A stretch of DNA of 64,000 nt from Candidatus Termititenax sp. (GTDB lineage Bacteria; Margulisbacteria; Riflemargulisbacteria; GWF2-35-9; DYQY01). The notes beneath the pieces were generated by a model, which saw only the letters and a list, made by a program, of their open reading frames with translations, ran no database searches and was not told where the DNA came from. The translations under genes and the position numbers were made by a program. The DNA lies in the NCBI GenBank assembly GCA_020719045.1, contig DYQY01000004.1, positions 88,447 through 152,446 on the forward strand. Reading direction: 5' to 3'. Shown in pieces: positions 21,705-32,762 of the stretch (the stretch's first letter is position 1; the number at the start of each line of letters is the position of its first letter).

Positions 21705-22487
21705 TTAATCACCTTTCCTAACATAAAACTTTTGAATACCAGTAAAAGTTTCTCCTGGAGATAATCTTGTCATTGGCCAAACTAATTCAGCTTCCAAATA
21801 AGTATCATTTTTGTAAACTTCAATATTACACCTATGAGGGAACTCTGTTTGCAATTGCTTTTCAGATAAAATAATTTCTTTAATTAAGGTTAGCTTTCCT
21901 AAGCTACACTCAAGAACATTATCATCAGAAATTGCACCTAATTTAAAATCTAATCCTTGCTTAGGTGTTACAGTATATTTATTATTAATACTTAAGTTAT
22001 TTGTTGCAACCAAACTATCCAGCGTTATGTTTTCTGGGTAATCAAACACCTTAACTTCTGTTGCACTGAAAGTAACTGACAACTCATGAACTGGCAGTTG
22101 TGAAATATTCCACAAACCCCACTCAACAGGACTAGAAGATGTATTAGAAAAAGAATTTTCTACAATTAACTCTTCATCAATAAAATAAATGGTTCTAGAC
22201 AAAACAATACCATTCCAAGAAGGAGAAGTAATTTCTAACTTTATATCTGTCTTGGAGAAACTCCATGCCAAGCTATCAAACTCTTTAACTGGTGGCCATC
22301 CGCCCCATTTTGCCTGAGGAGCCAACCAAAGAAAATCGCCACCATAGTTAGTCCATCCACTATCTGTAGGCTTATTTGATGAATAAAATAACGGAATATC
22401 TTGATAGTATACCTGCTCTATCCTTCCACCATGTGTAGGATTCACAACAACTTTCAATTTACCTTTTTCTAAGAAAAGCTGACTCAC
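21705..22487 (-). CDS. DUF4380 / aldose-epimerase-like protein
   Basis: HGGRIEQVYYQ..., GGDFLWLAPQAKWGGWPP, SRTIYFIDEELIVENSF. Confidence 0.75.
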   Translation of the reverse strand: MSQLFLEKGKLKVVVNPTHGGRIEQVYYQDIPLFYSSNKPTDSGWTNYGGDFLWLAPQAKWGGWPPVKEFDSLAWSFSKTDIKLEITSPSWNGIVLSRTIYFIDEELIVENSFSNTSSSPVEWGLWNISQLPVHELSVTFSATEVKVFDYPENITLDSLVATNNLSINNKYTVTPKQGLDFKLGAISDDNVLECSLGKLTLIKEIILSEKQLQTEFPHRCNIEVYKNDTYLEAELVWPMTRLSPGETFTGIQKFYVRKGD

Positions 22488-25400
22488 TTACTTATATTTA
22501 CGGTTCTTTTTATCTTTTCTACGCTTATAAAGATAAAAAACAACTGCAGTAAGAATAATAAGTAAAACAATCCATTTCCATGGAATACCAAAACCTTTTT
22601 GTAGTGATGAGTACATCTTAGGATCAAAATCCAGTAATGAAACTATTAAGAATTTTCTAGTCTTATTTTTCTCATCATATTCAACTACAACACTATCCTT
22701 AACTTTTACAGGAGCTAATGTCATTGGACTATACACTGTTCCTAAATCAACCATCCCTCTGTATCTGCCTGAATGATTTGTTGTTTCAGTTAATCTTACC
22801 TTCACTGGATAGTAGTTATCACCAAGAGGATAAACTAAAACTTTTGAATCAAAAATATCTAACTTAGTAGGATCTGCATCTTTTCCTAATACCTCAACAT
22901 ATACTTTCTTGAACTGAATATTATCATCCTTACCAATCTCTGCTACGTAACCTGGATCATGGAATAACTTAACTGTTTGAACTAGGGTTGGACGCTTCTT
23001 CCCAACTCGATAGTTTTTGTTCTTTAAGTATACTTTATTAATCTTACATGTTTTATCTAATTTACCAGCACTATCTATTAAGAATTGGATATTTCTAACT
23101 TTATTAAAATCAAAATCATCTGTCACATCAACATACTGTTGCTGATCAGCACTCCAACCTTTCCACCAAGACCTATCTCTAATTTTATCCTTCTGCACCA
23201 ACTTCATTTCCACGTCAGAACCTAATCCTTCTGCAGCTGACCATTCATAAACTCCAGCACCTTTTTCTGAATTCCATGCTGCATATCCATTAAGTACAGC
23301 TTTATTACCTGACTCATCCTCGATATCAACCCTTAGCTCACCTGGGTTATTATCTAATTGCATTTCTACAATTAAATCTTCTTTATCTGACCAGTCAGCA
23401 TAACGTCCATTAAGTCCCCAAGCTCCGAAGTATGGATAGTCATCACCACGATATCTCTTATACACATCTAAGTGCTTCTTACCTTTTCCAGCAACTTTAA
23501 GCATATATGATTTATCAGCAGCTTCTGAACCAGCAATCCACCAAATAACTGGATATTTGTCATCAATACTACCATCAGCAAAATCGTCGATTATATGAAT
23601 TAAGTCAAATAATCCAACTTCAAATTGGGCAGCTTTAGCTTTTTCTACAGGAGGAACAATCTTAACCTTACTTCCCCACGCAGCACCTAAAATATCCTCA
23701 TCCTTATATGTATTTAAGTCAGTGCTAAATGCACCTCTATATATTCCTGTATTTGCCCCTGTTTCCTCTAAAACAACAATAATCGACTTATCGTTAACAA
23801 CCGCATCATTACTATAAAGCTCTACATTAATCTTATCTCTACTGTTTTTATCTCCGTCTCTCCCTTTAACTTCTAGATAAACTTTCTGAGTTGTAATTAA
23901 ATTCTTAAGCTCATACTTATACAGTTGGTCTCTGAACAATTTTACATACTCAATATTTTTTGGGTTGGTTCTGCCAATGTGTTTATTGCCTCTTATTAGA
24001 TACATATCGTCAATCTCAACAACAGAATCAGCCTTTTCACCACCACCAATACTAAGCTCTACATTAAGAATATCTCCTAATTTAAACTTACTAGTAACAT
24101 CAACATAGTTCTCTACAGTTGTATCGTATGATTTCCAGAATCTTCTATCTTTAATAGGTCTTGTATCTATAGCCCTATCGGATACTGCTCTACCAGACTG
24201 ATAATTAGAACTCCAACGATACCAACCAGGACCCTTATTATAATTGTACGGATTATAAGAATTTAGAACTGCTGTTTGTCTATTAGAGTCCTCAATGTCA
24301 ACTTGAATGTCCCCAATATTTCCTGGTAAATATATCCAAAAAACGAATTCAGTCTTATCGTTCCATTTTTTCAAATCCCCACTAAGACCCCATTTACCAA
24401 GATATGGATAATCTTTACTAAAATATGTTTTTCTTATCTGCAGTGAATTTGGTCCAGAAACACTTCTCTTATTTGAAATCATTAATTCATAAGATTTAGT
24501 TCTGCCGTATTCCTTAACAATAAAAGGAATAGTGTATGCTTTATTCCAATCGTTTGGACCTACGGAGGTTAATTGTGGATACTTTTTACCATCAATATAG
24601 TTTTCAATCTGCACAAATGTTCCATCAAGCGTAAAATCGATACCATCTTCTGCATATTTCTCAAAAGCTGAAAATTCAACGCTCTTTGGAGTACTCTGAG
24701 CAACAGAATCACCTTGTTCAATATTGTATCTATTAATAATGTTAATATTTCCATCACTCTTTAATGAGCCAGTAAACTTATGAGTTGTTTGGTCTGATGA
24801 CCATCTTAAATACCATGTATTATTATCTTTCCAAAGGAAATAACCAAGCTTTTTTCCTGCTGGATATATAGGTCTGCCATCTGTTGGATCGATATTATCC
24901 ACCCACCAAGAATCAGGATTAATACCAGCAGCAATATCATCAAAATTATCTAGAAGAATCTTTAAGTCAAACTCTCCTATTTTAAGTTGCTTCACAAAAC
25001 CTTTTCTTACATCAGAAAAAACCTTGATTGTACTACCAGCACTTGCACCAATAATCCTATGAGCAAAATCTGAATAAACACCAATCTTCAAATGTCCTCT
25101 ATATATACCAGAATTTATATCAGTCTCAATAAGCTCTAAATCCATGTCCTCACAACCTGGATGCTTATCGCTTGTCTCTATTCTTATTTTAAATCTATCT
25201 ATTGTTTCTTTTGAGGCATCTTTGCCTGTTACTTGAATATATACATTGTCTTTATTTAACAACGATTTATCGGCGATAACTTTAGTAAACTCTTTATCAT
25301 TATAAAATGCTATATCAGCTATTGATTTAGGTTTATTAAAAGCATAATAATAGTTATCTTTCTTTAATGTAAGATTATCAATAATTAACTCTGAGTTGTC

Positions 25401-28400
25401 TTTATTTCCACCATTAATACAAAACATTATATTCTTAATGTTTGCTAGATTAATCTCTTTTGTTCGCTCTACATTTCTTCCTTTGTCAAAAGACCAACCC
25501 TTCCACCAGTTTCTATACCTTATAGAAAAAGGTTGAAGTAAATTAGCATTTACGTCCACGCCGAGCAAGTTATTAGACTTCCATTTATACCAACCTGCAC
25601 CCTTTTCTCTGCTCCAAGGATTATATCCATTTAAAATAACTACTGTTCCATCTTCATCCTGAATATCAACCCTTATTGTTCCAATATCATTTTTCAAATA
25701 AACATCAAATTCAAACTCGTCAAACTGAGTCCAGTCCTTATGTTCTTCATTAAAAACTACTGCTCCAGCATATGGATATCCTTTACCAATATAATTTTTA
25801 TTAATCTTAAGCGCGTAATTTGAATTATAAGCAATACTACTGCTCATTTGATATTTATAAGTTCCTGTTTCACCAATATTTCTTAACACTAATGGAGCAC
25901 CAAAAGAACTTAATGCATCAACACCGATTTTAAATGCTTCAAGGTCATATACACCGTTTCTTTTAATATCAAATATTACGTATTCTCCATCAACAGTAAA
26001 ATCTATTCCATCTTGTCCATTACGTTCCTGAAAACTAAAATCTACTGACCTCTCAAGCTTTTTAAACTGATCTGTATTCTCTGTATCAGAATTACCAGCA
26101 TAAGTAACCTTCCCATCAGTAAGTATCATTCCATGATAAATCTCACCATTATCTCCTGCTAGAAAACGAATATGCCACTTAGTATCTTTCCAAATATATA
26201 TCCCAGCGTCTTTTCCTACATTAAATGCGGGCTTACCGGAACTTGGAAAAATCGAATCTGTCCACCAAGCCATTGGATTTGCATCGTCATATGCTCCATT
26301 TTCGAAGTCTTCTACAATCATAGGAATTACAAGCTTACCAATCATGTATGTTTTATTTATCTTTGGTTGATGATCAATAATAACCTTAATTTCCTTACCA
26401 ACAGAAGCTGCAATTACCTTACCAGCCTTACTACCATCAAGTCCTATACTGAAACTTCCAGTGTACACACCTGTCTTATTACCAGTCTCAGCCACTTTAA
26501 CAATTATAGGGTCTGCACCTTTCTGATTAGATTCCACTCGCACATAGAAGAAATCCCTTCGTTTTGGATTTTTATCTTTTCCAACCGCTTTTACGTAAAC
26601 AGTGTCAACCATTATAGGTTCGTCTTTTACTTTATAATTAAATGCAGAATCTAAATACAAATCGAAATCAATAATGTTTGGCTTAGTATTGTCATGTGTA
26701 TAAAAATTCTTAATCATTCCAGCAAAATGTGCTAAACCAAACCAAGCCCATGTACTACTAAAATAATCCATTTGAGCATTCCATTCAGAGTGATCAAAAA
26801 CTGTCCAATAACCACCCTCTTTACTCTTACTGTACCAACCATCACCATCTTTGTATGGAGTACCAATCTCTACACGAGAATCAACCTTTTCAGCTGGAAC
26901 GTGCTTAGCTAAATTAGCTGGCGTTTCCTTTGCTAACTGATCATCAGGGATAACATACTGTCTTTTACTAAAACCATCTGCCTCTGGTGTTATTAATGGA
27001 GTAAGTAACTTTTCAACTATTTTAAAAGTCTTAGGGTTTGGGTCAGACAAATAGGATGACCAGAAATAAGACAAATAAACACCATACTGAGCACAATTAG
27101 CCCTTGAACTAAATGAATTTTGTACATAAGAATCATTTGGTTTTGGCTCATAATTTGACTCATATAAAGCATAAGAACCATCATGCCAAAATACTGAAGC
27201 AATTTTCTTGGCTTCATCATAGTTAGTTGTTTTATCCCAATTTCCCCTACCGTCATTCATTCTGTATGTTAGAAAATTGTAAGGACCTAGATTGCTGTTT
27301 TTTCTTAAATAGTCTCTTGCCCTGTCATCACTATACCAATCATAATCAACAGCTATACGCCATAATCCTCTAAAAGCATCAGTACCAAACTCTGGCTCTC
27401 TTCTACTCTGACCGTCCCTTAATTTACCATCCTTATCAACATTAACCCAGTCTGGTAAAAGGTTTGCTTTTGCCCAACGCTGTCTTTTCTTTGTATTCTG
27501 ATTATGGTTTTCACCTTTCTTATCAACCCAATCCTTAAGTGGCATTACTGACGATTCATGAAATACCCTGTATGTTGAATCAACAACATCTTGCCAATTG
27601 TGTTCAGGATCAAAATCATCAAAGATTCTATAAGTAAAAGGTGAAAGATATCCTGGCTCAATATCCTTTATATTATCTCCACCAGCAAAGTAACGCTCTC
27701 CATTATTTATAAATGTCTCTTTTTTCCAGATATCCTTAATAATATCTCTAGCATTCTGCTCATAGTCTAAAAACCTATCGCCCTTTTTGCTGCCCCACAG
27801 TTTATGAGCAAATATCAAACTTAACGCAATATCTTCATCTGCATCTGATGCAGCATCATATCCATCTCTCCATGGTTCATTTGGATTATTCTCTTTGGAT
27901 GGAGGTTGCCATCTATAATAGATAATTCCATCTTCCTTCACCCCATCGCCATCTCGGTCTGCTATTGTAGGTGCCCATCTCCAAGCAAACAAATTATCTT
28001 TATCAAGACCTAACTGGCTCATTGATTTCCATCCATTGTCAGGATGGTTAATATCTTTCCAAAAATAAACATACTCTAGCTGACTATGCTGAAGGTTCTT
28101 CTTAGTCCAAGCCCACACTTTGTCGAAAGTTTTCTTGTCTTTCATCCAAATAGCTCTTAATAATGCATAAGAAGAGGATTCACTTACAACTAATAACTCA
28201 AATGGCTTTTTAGGGTCTGACCAATTAATGTCTGCAATACCGTCCCTATCAACATCTCCAGAATCCATAAAAGCATAAGGAGCGCCATCATCACCAATCA
28301 TCTTTGGGTGTGTAAACTTACCAGACCACCAATCTGCATCAAAATTTTCATGAGTAATATAATGGTTCCAAACAGACTCTAATATACCCTTGGAAGCTTT

Positions 28401-28550
28401 TTGATAATCAGAAATCTTACCACTTACATTTTTATTTCCAGCGCATCCTCGTAATAACAAAATAATTATAATTACTACTGCGACAAAACCTAAAAAATAA
28501 AATAAATTTCTTCTTAATTTTGATTGATTGTTATATTGTTTTTTCAGCAT
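22488..28550 (-). CDS. Giant (2020 aa) GH8-like glycoside hydrolase with repeated modules and C-terminal membrane anchor
   Basis: N-terminal TM/lipoprotein-like segment; GH8-like region (SESSSYALLRAIW, LFAWRWAPTIADRDGDGVKEDG, ASDADEDIALSLIFAHKLWG); four ETGxxxGxYxGxF modules plus DDF..WW modules; C-terminal TM with basic tail (VLLIILTAVVFYLYKRRKDKKNRK). Confidence 0.8.
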   Translation of the reverse strand: MLKKQYNNQSKLRRNLFYFLGFVAVVIIIILLLRGCAGNKNVSGKISDYQKASKGILESVWNHYITHENFDADWWSGKFTHPKMIGDDGAPYAFMDSGDVDRDGIADINWSDPKKPFELLVVSESSSYALLRAIWMKDKKTFDKVWAWTKKNLQHSQLEYVYFWKDINHPDNGWKSMSQLGLDKDNLFAWRWAPTIADRDGDGVKEDGIIYYRWQPPSKENNPNEPWRDGYDAASDADEDIALSLIFAHKLWGSKKGDRFLDYEQNARDIIKDIWKKETFINNGERYFAGGDNIKDIEPGYLSPFTYRIFDDFDPEHNWQDVVDSTYRVFHESSVMPLKDWVDKKGENHNQNTKKRQRWAKANLLPDWVNVDKDGKLRDGQSRREPEFGTDAFRGLWRIAVDYDWYSDDRARDYLRKNSNLGPYNFLTYRMNDGRGNWDKTTNYDEAKKIASVFWHDGSYALYESNYEPKPNDSYVQNSFSSRANCAQYGVYLSYFWSSYLSDPNPKTFKIVEKLLTPLITPEADGFSKRQYVIPDDQLAKETPANLAKHVPAEKVDSRVEIGTPYKDGDGWYSKSKEGGYWTVFDHSEWNAQMDYFSSTWAWFGLAHFAGMIKNFYTHDNTKPNIIDFDLYLDSAFNYKVKDEPIMVDTVYVKAVGKDKNPKRRDFFYVRVESNQKGADPIIVKVAETGNKTGVYTGSFSIGLDGSKAGKVIAASVGKEIKVIIDHQPKINKTYMIGKLVIPMIVEDFENGAYDDANPMAWWTDSIFPSSGKPAFNVGKDAGIYIWKDTKWHIRFLAGDNGEIYHGMILTDGKVTYAGNSDTENTDQFKKLERSVDFSFQERNGQDGIDFTVDGEYVIFDIKRNGVYDLEAFKIGVDALSSFGAPLVLRNIGETGTYKYQMSSSIAYNSNYALKINKNYIGKGYPYAGAVVFNEEHKDWTQFDEFEFDVYLKNDIGTIRVDIQDEDGTVVILNGYNPWSREKGAGWYKWKSNNLLGVDVNANLLQPFSIRYRNWWKGWSFDKGRNVERTKEINLANIKNIMFCINGGNKDNSELIIDNLTLKKDNYYYAFNKPKSIADIAFYNDKEFTKVIADKSLLNKDNVYIQVTGKDASKETIDRFKIRIETSDKHPGCEDMDLELIETDINSGIYRGHLKIGVYSDFAHRIIGASAGSTIKVFSDVRKGFVKQLKIGEFDLKILLDNFDDIAAGINPDSWWVDNIDPTDGRPIYPAGKKLGYFLWKDNNTWYLRWSSDQTTHKFTGSLKSDGNINIINRYNIEQGDSVAQSTPKSVEFSAFEKYAEDGIDFTLDGTFVQIENYIDGKKYPQLTSVGPNDWNKAYTIPFIVKEYGRTKSYELMISNKRSVSGPNSLQIRKTYFSKDYPYLGKWGLSGDLKKWNDKTEFVFWIYLPGNIGDIQVDIEDSNRQTAVLNSYNPYNYNKGPGWYRWSSNYQSGRAVSDRAIDTRPIKDRRFWKSYDTTVENYVDVTSKFKLGDILNVELSIGGGEKADSVVEIDDMYLIRGNKHIGRTNPKNIEYVKLFRDQLYKYELKNLITTQKVYLEVKGRDGDKNSRDKINVELYSNDAVVNDKSIIVVLEETGANTGIYRGAFSTDLNTYKDEDILGAAWGSKVKIVPPVEKAKAAQFEVGLFDLIHIIDDFADGSIDDKYPVIWWIAGSEAADKSYMLKVAGKGKKHLDVYKRYRGDDYPYFGAWGLNGRYADWSDKEDLIVEMQLDNNPGELRVDIEDESGNKAVLNGYAAWNSEKGAGVYEWSAAEGLGSDVEMKLVQKDKIRDRSWWKGWSADQQQYVDVTDDFDFNKVRNIQFLIDSAGKLDKTCKINKVYLKNKNYRVGKKRPTLVQTVKLFHDPGYVAEIGKDDNIQFKKVYVEVLGKDADPTKLDIFDSKVLVYPLGDNYYPVKVRLTETTNHSGRYRGMVDLGTVYSPMTLAPVKVKDSVVVEYDEKNKTRKFLIVSLLDFDPKMYSSLQKGFGIPWKWIVLLIILTAVVFYLYKRRKDKKNRKYK

Positions 28551-28600: not shown

Positions 28601-30409
28601 CTAGCCTTTTACGGCGCCAGCAGTAAGACCTTTTACGATATGTTTCTGTAGCAAGAAAAACAACACTAAAACTGGAAGGGTTGCTATAGTAGCAGCAGCC
28701 ATCATTAGGTCGTATCTGTTTTGATAATTTCCAACAAACAGTCTAATTCCTATTGGAATAGTTAGAGTGTCTGAATCGGTTAAAATCCATGCAAACATTA
28801 GCTCATCCCATGCTTGAAGGAAAATATAAATACCAGTAGCAACAATACCAGGCACCGCTAATGGCAAGGTAATTTTATAGAAAACCTGAAAAGCATTACA
28901 TCCATCTACTCTAGCTGACTCTTCTAGTTCAACAGGAATAGAAGCAAAAAAACTTCTTAATATCCAAATAGAAAAAGGAACAAAAAAAGCAGTATAGATA
29001 AACGTTAAACCACCATGTGTGCCTTGAACCGAAACACCAGTAACATCACTAACCCATTTGAACATAATGAATATTGGGATTAAATACATTATCTGAGGAA
29101 TCATTTGTGTAGCTAATATCGATACACCAAAAGCCTTATTTCCAGGGAAATTAAATCTAACTAAAGCATAAGATGCTAAAGTAGCTAAAATCATAGCAAA
29201 AAGCATTGTAAAGCCTGAAATAATAATACTATTCTTTAAATATAGTCCAAAATCTATATTCTTCCAAAGGTCAGCATAATTCTCTACCATTACTAGTCTA
29301 TGACCAAGTGGAAGCTGGAAAGAATCATATGGCTTTCCTTTTAAGTCTTTTATAAAAGATACTCTACCATAAGATGACCCTAGTATAACCTCATCACCAT
29401 TTGCAATAATTCTAGTTACCTCACTACTAGAATAGTCAGATTTAGGATCTACAACAACCCCATCCTTTAATTCTCTAACTAAATGATAAGCCTCAATATC
29501 AACTTTACCTGTATTCAAATTAGCTACTTTTAATCCTGTTGGACTAACAATGTATACGGTTTCACCTTTAATGATAATATCTTCAAATAAACTAACACCA
29601 AAATCCTTTACATCAAGAACGGCTTGCTTATCAGTATCTATAAAATATATCCCATTCTGAACTAATAGTAATAGATTATTACCCTTAACCTGCTTAACCT
29701 CTTGAACACCTGCTGGTAGATAATTATCACCTAAATCTATCCTTTTCTCCTCAACAAATGTTTGCTTATTTAGAACTAACAAGTACCTGTTTGTATTAAC
29801 ATATAACTTATCACCTATTATTTGAATATTGCGAATAAAACTATCACTATTAGTTTCTAGCTTAACTTTTCTTGCTAAGGATAAATCATTTTTATTATAA
29901 ACATATATTCTATTCATACCTTTAAGTTCTATTGAGTAAACGACAACATCATCGTAGGCAACTATAGATGTTTTACCTAAACGATTAGTGTCTACTCCTG
30001 TAACTGGACTAGATGCTTCTTTTTTAATCTCTAATGTTCTTCTGTCTATTTTATATAGACCCTTAGTCGAATTTGCAAAATAGATAAAATCGCTATCTAA
30101 AAAATAACTTACGTCTCTTCCATTAACCTTTAACTTATTTAGCGATTTCTTTGTATCAGCATCATAGACAGCAATCCCACCATCTTGAGAAAAAACATAG
30201 AAATCCTTTCCAGCAAGCTCCATGCCAATAACATCGTTTTTTGCTCTACTGAATCCAACTTTTCCACTTAAAATATCATTATTATTTTTAAAAGAAGAAA
30301 ACATCATCCAAAATATCGGAAATGAATTTATAATCAAAAAAGCAAACATTATTACAAGAAAAACGTTTCTTAAGATTCTCTCTTTTTGATAATAATTAAC
30401 AAAAGCCAT
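28601..30409 (-). CDS. Sugar ABC transporter permease (MalG type) with large beta-propeller-like insertion
   Basis: C-terminal MalG/BPD_transp_1 fold with EAA loop (ELEESARVDGCNAFQVFYKITLPLAVPGI); N-terminal TM; ~330-aa intervening strand-repeat region. Confidence 0.9.
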   Translation of the reverse strand: MAFVNYYQKERILRNVFLVIMFAFLIINSFPIFWMMFSSFKNNNDILSGKVGFSRAKNDVIGMELAGKDFYVFSQDGGIAVYDADTKKSLNKLKVNGRDVSYFLDSDFIYFANSTKGLYKIDRRTLEIKKEASSPVTGVDTNRLGKTSIVAYDDVVVYSIELKGMNRIYVYNKNDLSLARKVKLETNSDSFIRNIQIIGDKLYVNTNRYLLVLNKQTFVEEKRIDLGDNYLPAGVQEVKQVKGNNLLLLVQNGIYFIDTDKQAVLDVKDFGVSLFEDIIIKGETVYIVSPTGLKVANLNTGKVDIEAYHLVRELKDGVVVDPKSDYSSSEVTRIIANGDEVILGSSYGRVSFIKDLKGKPYDSFQLPLGHRLVMVENYADLWKNIDFGLYLKNSIIISGFTMLFAMILATLASYALVRFNFPGNKAFGVSILATQMIPQIMYLIPIFIMFKWVSDVTGVSVQGTHGGLTFIYTAFFVPFSIWILRSFFASIPVELEESARVDGCNAFQVFYKITLPLAVPGIVATGIYIFLQAWDELMFAWILTDSDTLTIPIGIRLFVGNYQNRYDLMMAAATIATLPVLVLFFLLQKHIVKGLTAGAVKG

Positions 30410-31368
30410 TAAAAAATCTCCTCTGTCTTTTTATAGTGTTTGTACCAAAAATTAACAACTATAATCATCACCAATAGTAATAATACTGACGTCGCTGCAC
30501 CAGCTCCAAAATCCCATCTCATAAACGAGTTACGGAAAATATTTGTCATCATTAAATCGCCCCACTTACCAGGGAATCCAGCACCATTACCAAACATCAT
30601 AATTACAATATTAAAAGAATATGTATTATAAATCATTCCAAATAACACTAAAATCATCCATACTGGACTAAGCATTGGCCATGTTATCTTCCAGAAAGTT
30701 TTCCACTTACCAGCACCATCAATCTTGGCTGCATCATATAAAGACTGAGGAACATTTTGTATGCCTGCAAGTAACATCAACATTGAAAATGGCCAAAATC
30801 TCCATATAGTAGGAATAATAATTGCCCATATTGAGTTAACTCCTACCAACCAAAATGGCTTTTCAGCAAGAAGATGCAACCAGTCAACAAGAATAATATT
30901 GATAATACCTATCGTCTGTTGGAACATAAATCCCCACAAAATACCTGTAACATAAGTTGGAACTATCCAAGAAAACATAAACAAGGTTCTTACAAGTCCT
31001 CTACCTTTAAATTCAATACTAAGCATCAAAGCTACAACCATACCAACTGCTGTTTGCCCAATTGTAACTAAGAAGGAATAAATGATTGTATTTCTTACTG
31101 CATCATAGATACCAATTCTCATTGGACTTGATGGGTTAAACATAACGTCATAAAAATTACCAAAACCAATAAAAGGAGCACCCAAATATTGATTAAGAGT
31201 AAAATTATTTAATCTTAAAAAAGACATATACAATCCCTGAACGATTGGGAAGAAATGCATTAGAACCATAGCTATAGCTGTTGGCAATACAAAGTAATAT
31301 GCTATTTTATACTTATGATAGTAATACTTTGTTTTTTCTAAAAAAGTCATTTCACTTATATTAACCAT
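30409..31368 (-). CDS. Sugar ABC transporter permease (MalF/UgpA type)
   Basis: Six-TM permease with EAA loop (SLYDAAKIDGAGKWKTFWKITWPMLSP). Confidence 0.93.
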   Translation of the reverse strand: MVNISEMTFLEKTKYYYHKYKIAYYFVLPTAIAMVLMHFFPIVQGLYMSFLRLNNFTLNQYLGAPFIGFGNFYDVMFNPSSPMRIGIYDAVRNTIIYSFLVTIGQTAVGMVVALMLSIEFKGRGLVRTLFMFSWIVPTYVTGILWGFMFQQTIGIINIILVDWLHLLAEKPFWLVGVNSIWAIIIPTIWRFWPFSMLMLLAGIQNVPQSLYDAAKIDGAGKWKTFWKITWPMLSPVWMILVLFGMIYNTYSFNIVIMMFGNGAGFPGKWGDLMMTNIFRNSFMRWDFGAGAATSVLLLLVMIIVVNFWYKHYKKTEEIF

Positions 31369-31375
31369 TATCTAG

Positions 31376-32728
31376 CTATCTATTCATAAGCAATACTTTA
31401 TCAACTTCGATTGCTGCTTTCTTTAATACATCATCATAAATAACATCTGTAGTAAATTTATCTTTGTTATTTAATACATATTCCCACATAATACCAAACC
31501 TTCTGTTAAGTGGTTGCTCAATTTGTGCCCACTCTGGGATACAAGGATATGCACGACCATACTTAACTGCTTCTCTATAAACTGATCTTCTTACATCTTG
31601 AGTAAAATATGGATCATCAAAAGCCTCCATTGCTGATGGCAAGAATCCACTTCTCTTTGAGTATTCAACTTGAGCTTTTTTACCAACTAAATACTTGATT
31701 ACTTCCCATGCTTCATCCTTATTCTTGGAGTTCTTAAACACTGAAAGGTTGCTACCACCTACGAAAGTGACCTTTCCTTTTGGACCTTCTGGATAAGGAA
31801 CAATATCAAATCTTTTTGCAACATATGTATTTGCAGCTCCACCTTGCTCTTCTGGAGTTGTTAGAGCTCTTAACTCATTTGAACCAGTAAATATAATTGC
31901 ATATTCACCATTGTTAAAAGCATTTTCTACTTGAGAAGTATTTTGCTCTAAACAAGATGCTGGGACATAACCTTTGATTACTAAATTAACTAAATATGAT
32001 AACCCGCTTGCTGCTTCATTTGAATAAAGAGCACATTCTTTATTGCCTTCCTTTAAGAAGTCTCCACCAGCCATCCAAATCCATGGCGCTAAGTTATGAA
32101 CAACATTCCAGTCGTTCTTACCAGTAATACCAAGTGGGTATACTTTCTTTCCATCAATTGTTAAATTTGCTTTGTTAATCTTATCTAATGTGTTTTGGAA
32201 TGATTCCCAAGTAGCTAAATCATTTTTCGTTAAACCTAATCTATTAAAAACGTCTGTTCTATAGTACATAGCTCTTGCATCTACAAACCATGGAATAGAA
32301 GTTACTGCATTTGAACCATCTATGCCAGAATACTTCCAAGAAGATGGTAGAAAATATGAAGAACCACCAAGCTCAGATACTTTACTTGTTAAATCAGCTA
32401 AAGCGCCCATGCCAGTAACTGCTCCAACCCATGTCGTACCAAGCTGTAATATGTCTGGACCTTCGCCTGACATTGTAGCGATTGTAATTCTTTGCCACGC
32501 TGAACCCCAATCTAAAGAGGTAATTTGAACTTTAATATCAGGATTTTCTTTATGGAAGTCTTCTAAAACATCAGATAAGTCATTAATTGGCTCAAGCGAG
32601 TTAGGCATTACCCACATAGTAACAACTGTTTGACCACTTTTTTGTTCTTTAGCTCCGCAACCTGAAATTAATATTGAAAACGAAACGAGAATTACTGAAA
32701 TTAATATGGACGAAAAAATTTTATTCAT
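31376..32728 (-). CDS. Extracellular solute-binding protein family 1 (sugar-binding lipoprotein)
   Basis: Lipobox ILISGC; SBP_bac_1 features. AGGTGG SD supports the MNKIF start rather than the ORF-track Met. Confidence 0.93.
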   Translation of the reverse strand: MNKIFSSILISVILVSFSILISGCGAKEQKSGQTVVTMWVMPNSLEPINDLSDVLEDFHKENPDIKVQITSLDWGSAWQRITIATMSGEGPDILQLGTTWVGAVTGMGALADLTSKVSELGGSSYFLPSSWKYSGIDGSNAVTSIPWFVDARAMYYRTDVFNRLGLTKNDLATWESFQNTLDKINKANLTIDGKKVYPLGITGKNDWNVVHNLAPWIWMAGGDFLKEGNKECALYSNEAASGLSYLVNLVIKGYVPASCLEQNTSQVENAFNNGEYAIIFTGSNELRALTTPEEQGGAANTYVAKRFDIVPYPEGPKGKVTFVGGSNLSVFKNSKNKDEAWEVIKYLVGKKAQVEYSKRSGFLPSAMEAFDDPYFTQDVRRSVYREAVKYGRAYPCIPEWAQIEQPLNRRFGIMWEYVLNNKDKFTTDVIYDDVLKKAAIEVDKVLLMNR

Positions 32729-32762
32729 AATTGGTACCACCTCTTAGTTTTTTTCAGGCGTC

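Follow-up and report, generated by a model that had tools for sequence, protein, structure and literature searches.

A predicted seven-bladed β-propeller in the first periplasmic loop of a MalG-type permease, shared by two phyla and reduced by entire blades, or absent, in some of their lineages

A MalG-type permease encoded in the window (the whole stretch of 64,000 nucleotides that was analysed, from a genome of the phylum Candidatus Margulisiibacteriota) carries an insert of 331 amino acids that is predicted to be a complete seven-bladed β-propeller. This propeller is old and conserved across two phyla, and in some lineages it has been trimmed or lost by whole blades. With a probability of roughly 0.5, it would act above the translocation gate, where it engages the sugar-loaded solute-binding protein (SBP) or the β-glycan oligosaccharide that this protein carries. 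In type-I sugar importers, specificity is usually credited to the soluble binding protein and to pore-lining residues; a conserved propeller within the permease would be a third element beside these. The relatives, which have seven or four blades or none, are a ready deletion series for the function of a large periplasmic permease domain, and may also bear on the MalG insert of Thermotoga, which has been without explanation since 2008.

The protein was assigned, on its sequence and gene context, to the type-I (CUT1) ABC importer permeases of the MalG type: it has a BPD_transp_1 domain and an EAA loop, and its gene stands in an SBP-MalF-MalG operon (Table 1). The Pfam domain matches at residues 407–595 with 63.7 bits against a cut-off of 26.4, the NCBIfam MalG match covers residues 389–602, and the PDB matches of the core are MalG, SugB and related permeases. 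The cut-off of the NCBIfam maltose MalG equivalog was missed (128 bits vs 261), and the permease is therefore not named a maltose transporter. Its substrates are probably β-linked gluco- and manno-oligosaccharides, judging from the neighbouring enzymes. The cluster runs in the order SBP, MalF, MalG, GH8 protein and mutarotase-like protein, all on the minus strand, and the host genome has one copy of the insert-bearing malG. A MalK candidate is found on another contig of the host genome (G000:C27:53727-54794, 51% identity to the MalK of a Fibrobacteria operon), and such a stand-alone MalK probably powers the importer. The N-terminus of the GH8 protein resembles a lipobox (LLLRGC), its domains are long and repeated, and its C-terminus has a TM segment with a basic tail; the protein may be an unusual surface enzyme anchored at both ends. 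An antisense open frame of 160 aa within its gene (26172-26654, plus strand) is probably spurious.

Table 1. Positions in the window of the permease gene, its parts and the neighbouring genes; AF2, AlphaFold2.
Feature	Position	Strand	Residues or length	Basis
MalG-type permease gene with inserted β-propeller	28601..30409	-	602 aa	ORF list, Pfam, NCBIfam
N-terminal tail and TM1 (about 11-38, peak 16-34)	30275..30409	-	1-45	hydropathy
Insert, predicted soluble β-propeller in first periplasmic (P1) loop	29282..30274	-	46-376	alignment, profile, AF2
Blade 1, invariant D76-G77	30128..30232	-	60-94	AF2 strands; conservation
Blade 2	30014..30109	-	101-132	AF2; conservation
Blade 3	29861..29971	-	147-183	AF2; conservation
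Blade 4, absent from short form	29735..29836	-	192-225	AF2; alignment; short-form model
Blade 5, absent from short form	29606..29707	-	235-268	AF2; alignment; short-form model
Blade 6, absent from short form	29489..29581	-	277-307	AF2; alignment; short-form model
Blade 7, GSSxGR motif	29351..29434	-	326-353	AF2; conservation
Permease core	28604..29281	-	377-602	Pfam, NCBIfam, hydropathy
EAA loop, LEESARVDGCNAFQVFYKITL	28865..28927	-	~495-515	sequence
MalF-type permease, no large P2 domain; malG directly 3′	30409..31368	-	319 aa	ORF, Pfam, NCBIfam
Extracellular solute-binding protein (SBP_bac_1/8)	31376..32740	-		Pfam
GH8-containing surface protein, next operon gene after malG	22488..28550	-	2020 aa	Pfam
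Weakly mutarotase-like protein, last gene of cluster	21705..22487	-		NCBIfam

The EAA loop of MalG is the cytoplasmic contact to the ATPase. Because this loop, at about residues 494–516, must be cytoplasmic, and because the N-terminus ahead of TM1 is positive (KER..R), the insert is placed on the extracytoplasmic side, as the P1 loop. Hydropathy gives no membrane segment within residues 46–376, and the core helices follow after it. A sequence-only reading of this DNA had described a propeller-like insert of ~330 aa with six to seven strand-rich repeats, set between TM1 and TM2 and facing away from the cytoplasm. All of this agrees with the present results, including the lack of a hydrophobic helix in the insert and its aligned length. 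The coordinates given there, 29260-30259, correspond to residues 51–383; the alignment sets the insert at 46–376, with the modelled blades spanning 60–353.

An AF2 run with 29 natural relatives yielded an insert model of 28 strands forming seven four-stranded blades, with pLDDT mostly at 80–93 and a structural domain at residues ~60–365; the segments that had been quoted as repeats fall inside predicted strands. The permease core was modelled at low confidence (pLDDT about 40–75), so that the model gives no orientation of the propeller toward the gate. In Foldseek, the insert model matched propellers of WD40 proteins, of BamB and of the designed Tako8 at E values down to 5e-15, and a viral fold library gave generic WD40/propeller matches only. 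In profile searches, the top matches were propellers from the sensors of hybrid two-component systems in Bacteroides (HTCS; 3ott at E 3.5e-34, 4a2l at 5e-28), with WD40 proteins far behind (1e-4). Among 21 inserts searched with Pfam at E≤0.01, the PorZ N-propeller was matched by 16, PQQ_2 by 11 and Reg_prop by five; the insert of the window itself has only sub-threshold PQQ_2 and DUF5074 matches, and its Reg_prop repeats are not above the cut-off. The closest sequence kin are the Reg_prop/HTCS and PorZ propellers and not WD40 proteins, which sharpens the earlier label of WD40/PQQ-like. Within the Margulisbacteria inserts, the polar residues D76 and D140 are invariant or nearly so. Mean conservation of blades 1, 2, 3 and 7 is clearly higher than that of blades 5 and 6, and slightly or not at all higher than that of blade 4, whose value is close to those of blades 1 and 3.

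In the phylum Margulisiibacteriota (WOR-1/Saganbacteria, Marinamargulisbacteria), 75 genomes were searched, with counts tallied from the search tables. A full-length insert-bearing malG was found in 29 of these, a short form (~480 aa) without blades 4–6 in six, and an insert-less MalG (~290 aa) in ten; the genes of G189 and G191 are fragmentary, that of G006 is cut at a contig end, and that of G033 is frameshifted. In the last case (L039, 1945-3393) the frameshift splits malG after residue ~480, by an assembly error or as a pseudogene. The block missing from the short form corresponds exactly to blades 4–6 in the alignment, and AF2 models this form with four blades, each complete with four strands (pLDDT 70 on average and mostly 75–90 in the propeller). 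Relatives encoded in a single ORF recur in independent assemblies (insert 18–71% identity, core 64–95%), and the insert is therefore neither a chance product nor an assembly artefact. Outside the genus, identity to this protein is 18–43% for the insert and 64–85% for the core, and the cores of the seven-, four- and zero-blade relatives are about 70% identical. A homologous propeller occurs at the same site, with shared flanks, in Fibrobacterota, where the Margulisbacteria insert profile matches at E 1e-26 to 5e-6. The Fibrobacterota forms of 612–670 aa share their operons with genes for MalK and a GH1 β-glucosidase, and those of 724–742 aa carry ~140 additional aa behind blade 2. This added segment (L088-L096, residues ~125–265) lies between blades 2 and 3 and contains a conserved LFRWCLAE motif. 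A duplication of the propeller within the host genome was rejected, as the insert profile matches the MalG locus only. A phage or plasmid origin was likewise discarded: plasmid matches were to cores only, none of them insert-bearing, and PHROGs gave nothing significant.

Trees of the core only, with the insert excluded, bear on how the different forms arose. The short and insert-less Margulisbacteria forms make up one well-supported clade (99/99 and 100/99), whose sister is, with weak support, a pair of full-insert forms; the insert-less L036 falls among the short forms. Since the short and insert-less forms nest among full ones, they look like losses. Blades 4–6 are alignable between Fibrobacterota and Margulisbacteria, and the simplest history is therefore one in which the short form descends from a seven-blade state and both the short and the absent forms are losses. 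A single clade of all insert-bearing cores, without Thermus and Endomicrobia, was borderline in the AU test (p 0.049), which bears on a possible loss of the propeller in these two as well. Loss of the SBP as the cause of propeller loss was rejected: the SBP gene adjoins malG in some lineages and lies elsewhere in others, and is present in 16/16 genomes tested.

Large inserts at this position are not without precedent. In Thermotogales, MalG1 and MalG2 (TM1202, TM1836) have a hydrophilic insert of ~500 aa between TM1 and TM2 with no assigned function, in a region that was called unique and said to be in no other MalG (Noll et al. 2008, PMC2246101). The idea that the architecture has no precedent in MalG therefore goes too far, although the Thermotogales insert was not recognised as a propeller. 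Both systems are sugar importers with a MalG homologue of this kind, in operons without malK. The insert described here is shorter (331 vs ~500 aa), the likeness drawn here is one of position and hydrophilic character, and the Thermotogales MalF has a P2 domain whereas this MalF has none. The E. coli MalFGK2 transporter is also a type-I importer with a periplasmic loop at the SBP interface, but its large domain, which is not a propeller, is in MalF (P2, ~180 aa, TM3-TM4) rather than in MalG. The Bacteroides HTCS sensors (3ott, 4a2l, 3v9f; Pfam Reg_prop) share periplasmic seven-bladed propellers and are the best profile matches; they combine two propellers with Y_Y_Y and a histidine kinase, while here a single propeller sits inside a permease. 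Close insert-less comparisons are a GH1-linked carbohydrate permease of Thermus (L136), with the same SBP-MalF-MalG order, and an Endomicrobia MalG (L076), with cores ~62–67% identical; in both, TM1 is followed by a short loop and then the core. No earlier description of a MalG propeller or of its distribution was found in the open-access literature searched. New here are the propeller identity, the wider spread of the TM1-TM2 insert architecture and the natural blade-deletion series.

Presumably located on the outer face beside the substrate gate, the propeller could serve as an accessory receptor that meets the loaded SBP, or the protruding end of the oligosaccharide that the SBP holds. The effect would be more productive docking, or selection of the long β-linked glucan or mannan oligosaccharides that are freed by surface enzymes. 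The evidence that makes this the most likely role includes the site in P1, the contact of E. coli MalE with MalG P1 and MalF P2 (Daus 2007, as cited in PMC3150292), the lack of P2 in MalF, and the glycan-binding relatives of the propeller. It would be an improvement and not an essential part, and lineages could therefore trim whole blades (from seven to four) or lose it altogether. In line with this, the four- and zero-blade forms with intact cores point to dispensability, and the lost blades 4–6 average lower conservation than the kept ones. A sugar setting is provided by adjoining genes for GH8, GH26-CBM9, GH1 or carbohydrate-binding-like secreted proteins. On the other side, SBPs are present in genomes with and without a propeller, so the propeller is not needed for SBP dependence, and the many full-propeller lineages without an adjacent SBP gene weaken an argument from tight co-evolution.

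In a rather unlikely rival reading, the propeller would receive the glycan directly, binding free oligo- or polysaccharide in the periplasm without the SBP and so concentrating substrate at the permease, in the manner of HTCS sensing or capture. Its nearest sequence kin are the oligosaccharide-sensing HTCS and PorZ propellers (in the HTCS-type sensor BT4663, disaccharides are bound on the propeller entry faces; PMC5121618), and glycosidases and carbohydrate-binding domains are found in the operons; however, the low conservation of the insert outside the genus speaks against it, and propellers of this class also mediate protein contacts. A bolder and unlikely extension would be a permease-integrated selectivity device, in which the propeller senses long β-glycan oligosaccharides, free or SBP-held, and controls the gate, tuned by blade deletions from seven to four to zero.

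The gene neighbourhoods bear on a further possibility, in which the propeller would be a platform where a partner in the envelope docks (such as the neighbouring GH8 enzyme, a porin of the outer membrane or peptidoglycan), coupling uptake to surface digestion. A GH8 gene follows malG in the host's order, and large ORFs reading as outer-membrane proteins follow the Fibrobacteria operons. Across the relatives, however, conservation of the GH8 neighbour is largely limited to the host's own order and class, so that insert and GH8 do not go together in general. GH26 genes (with CBM9) follow malG in the short/insert-less clade and in two full-insert lineages, and other lineages have a secreted neighbour of ~225 aa with weak glycan-binding similarity. 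Because the neighbours vary between GH8, GH26, GH1 or none, the propeller tracks no single enzyme; it stays while the enzyme changes, and the seven-, four- and zero-blade forms all occur in GH26 operons. A dock for GH8 as the general role, which the sequence-only reading had suggested, was rejected on these grounds, and the broader docking platform is quite improbable. Least probable is a role as structural spacer, or as a nearly neutral passenger that inertia has preserved, with no binding function; this would fit the fast divergence and the repeated trimming or loss but not the frame that has stayed intact in Fibrobacterota and in the phylum's 29 full-length genes, nor the (nearly) invariant D76 and D140.

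Engagement of the loaded SBP or its sugar remains the preferred reading. Apart from the question of role, it is worth noting that in the short/insert-less clade (L056, L057, L064-L074) GH26 genes stand on both sides of MalF-MalG, with no adjacent SBP gene; in the genomes tested, the SBP is encoded at another place. In a WOR-1 genome (L048, 275-3418), a secreted protein of 1047 aa that reads as a cellulase-type glycosidase is encoded upstream of a GH8 gene and MalF-MalG.
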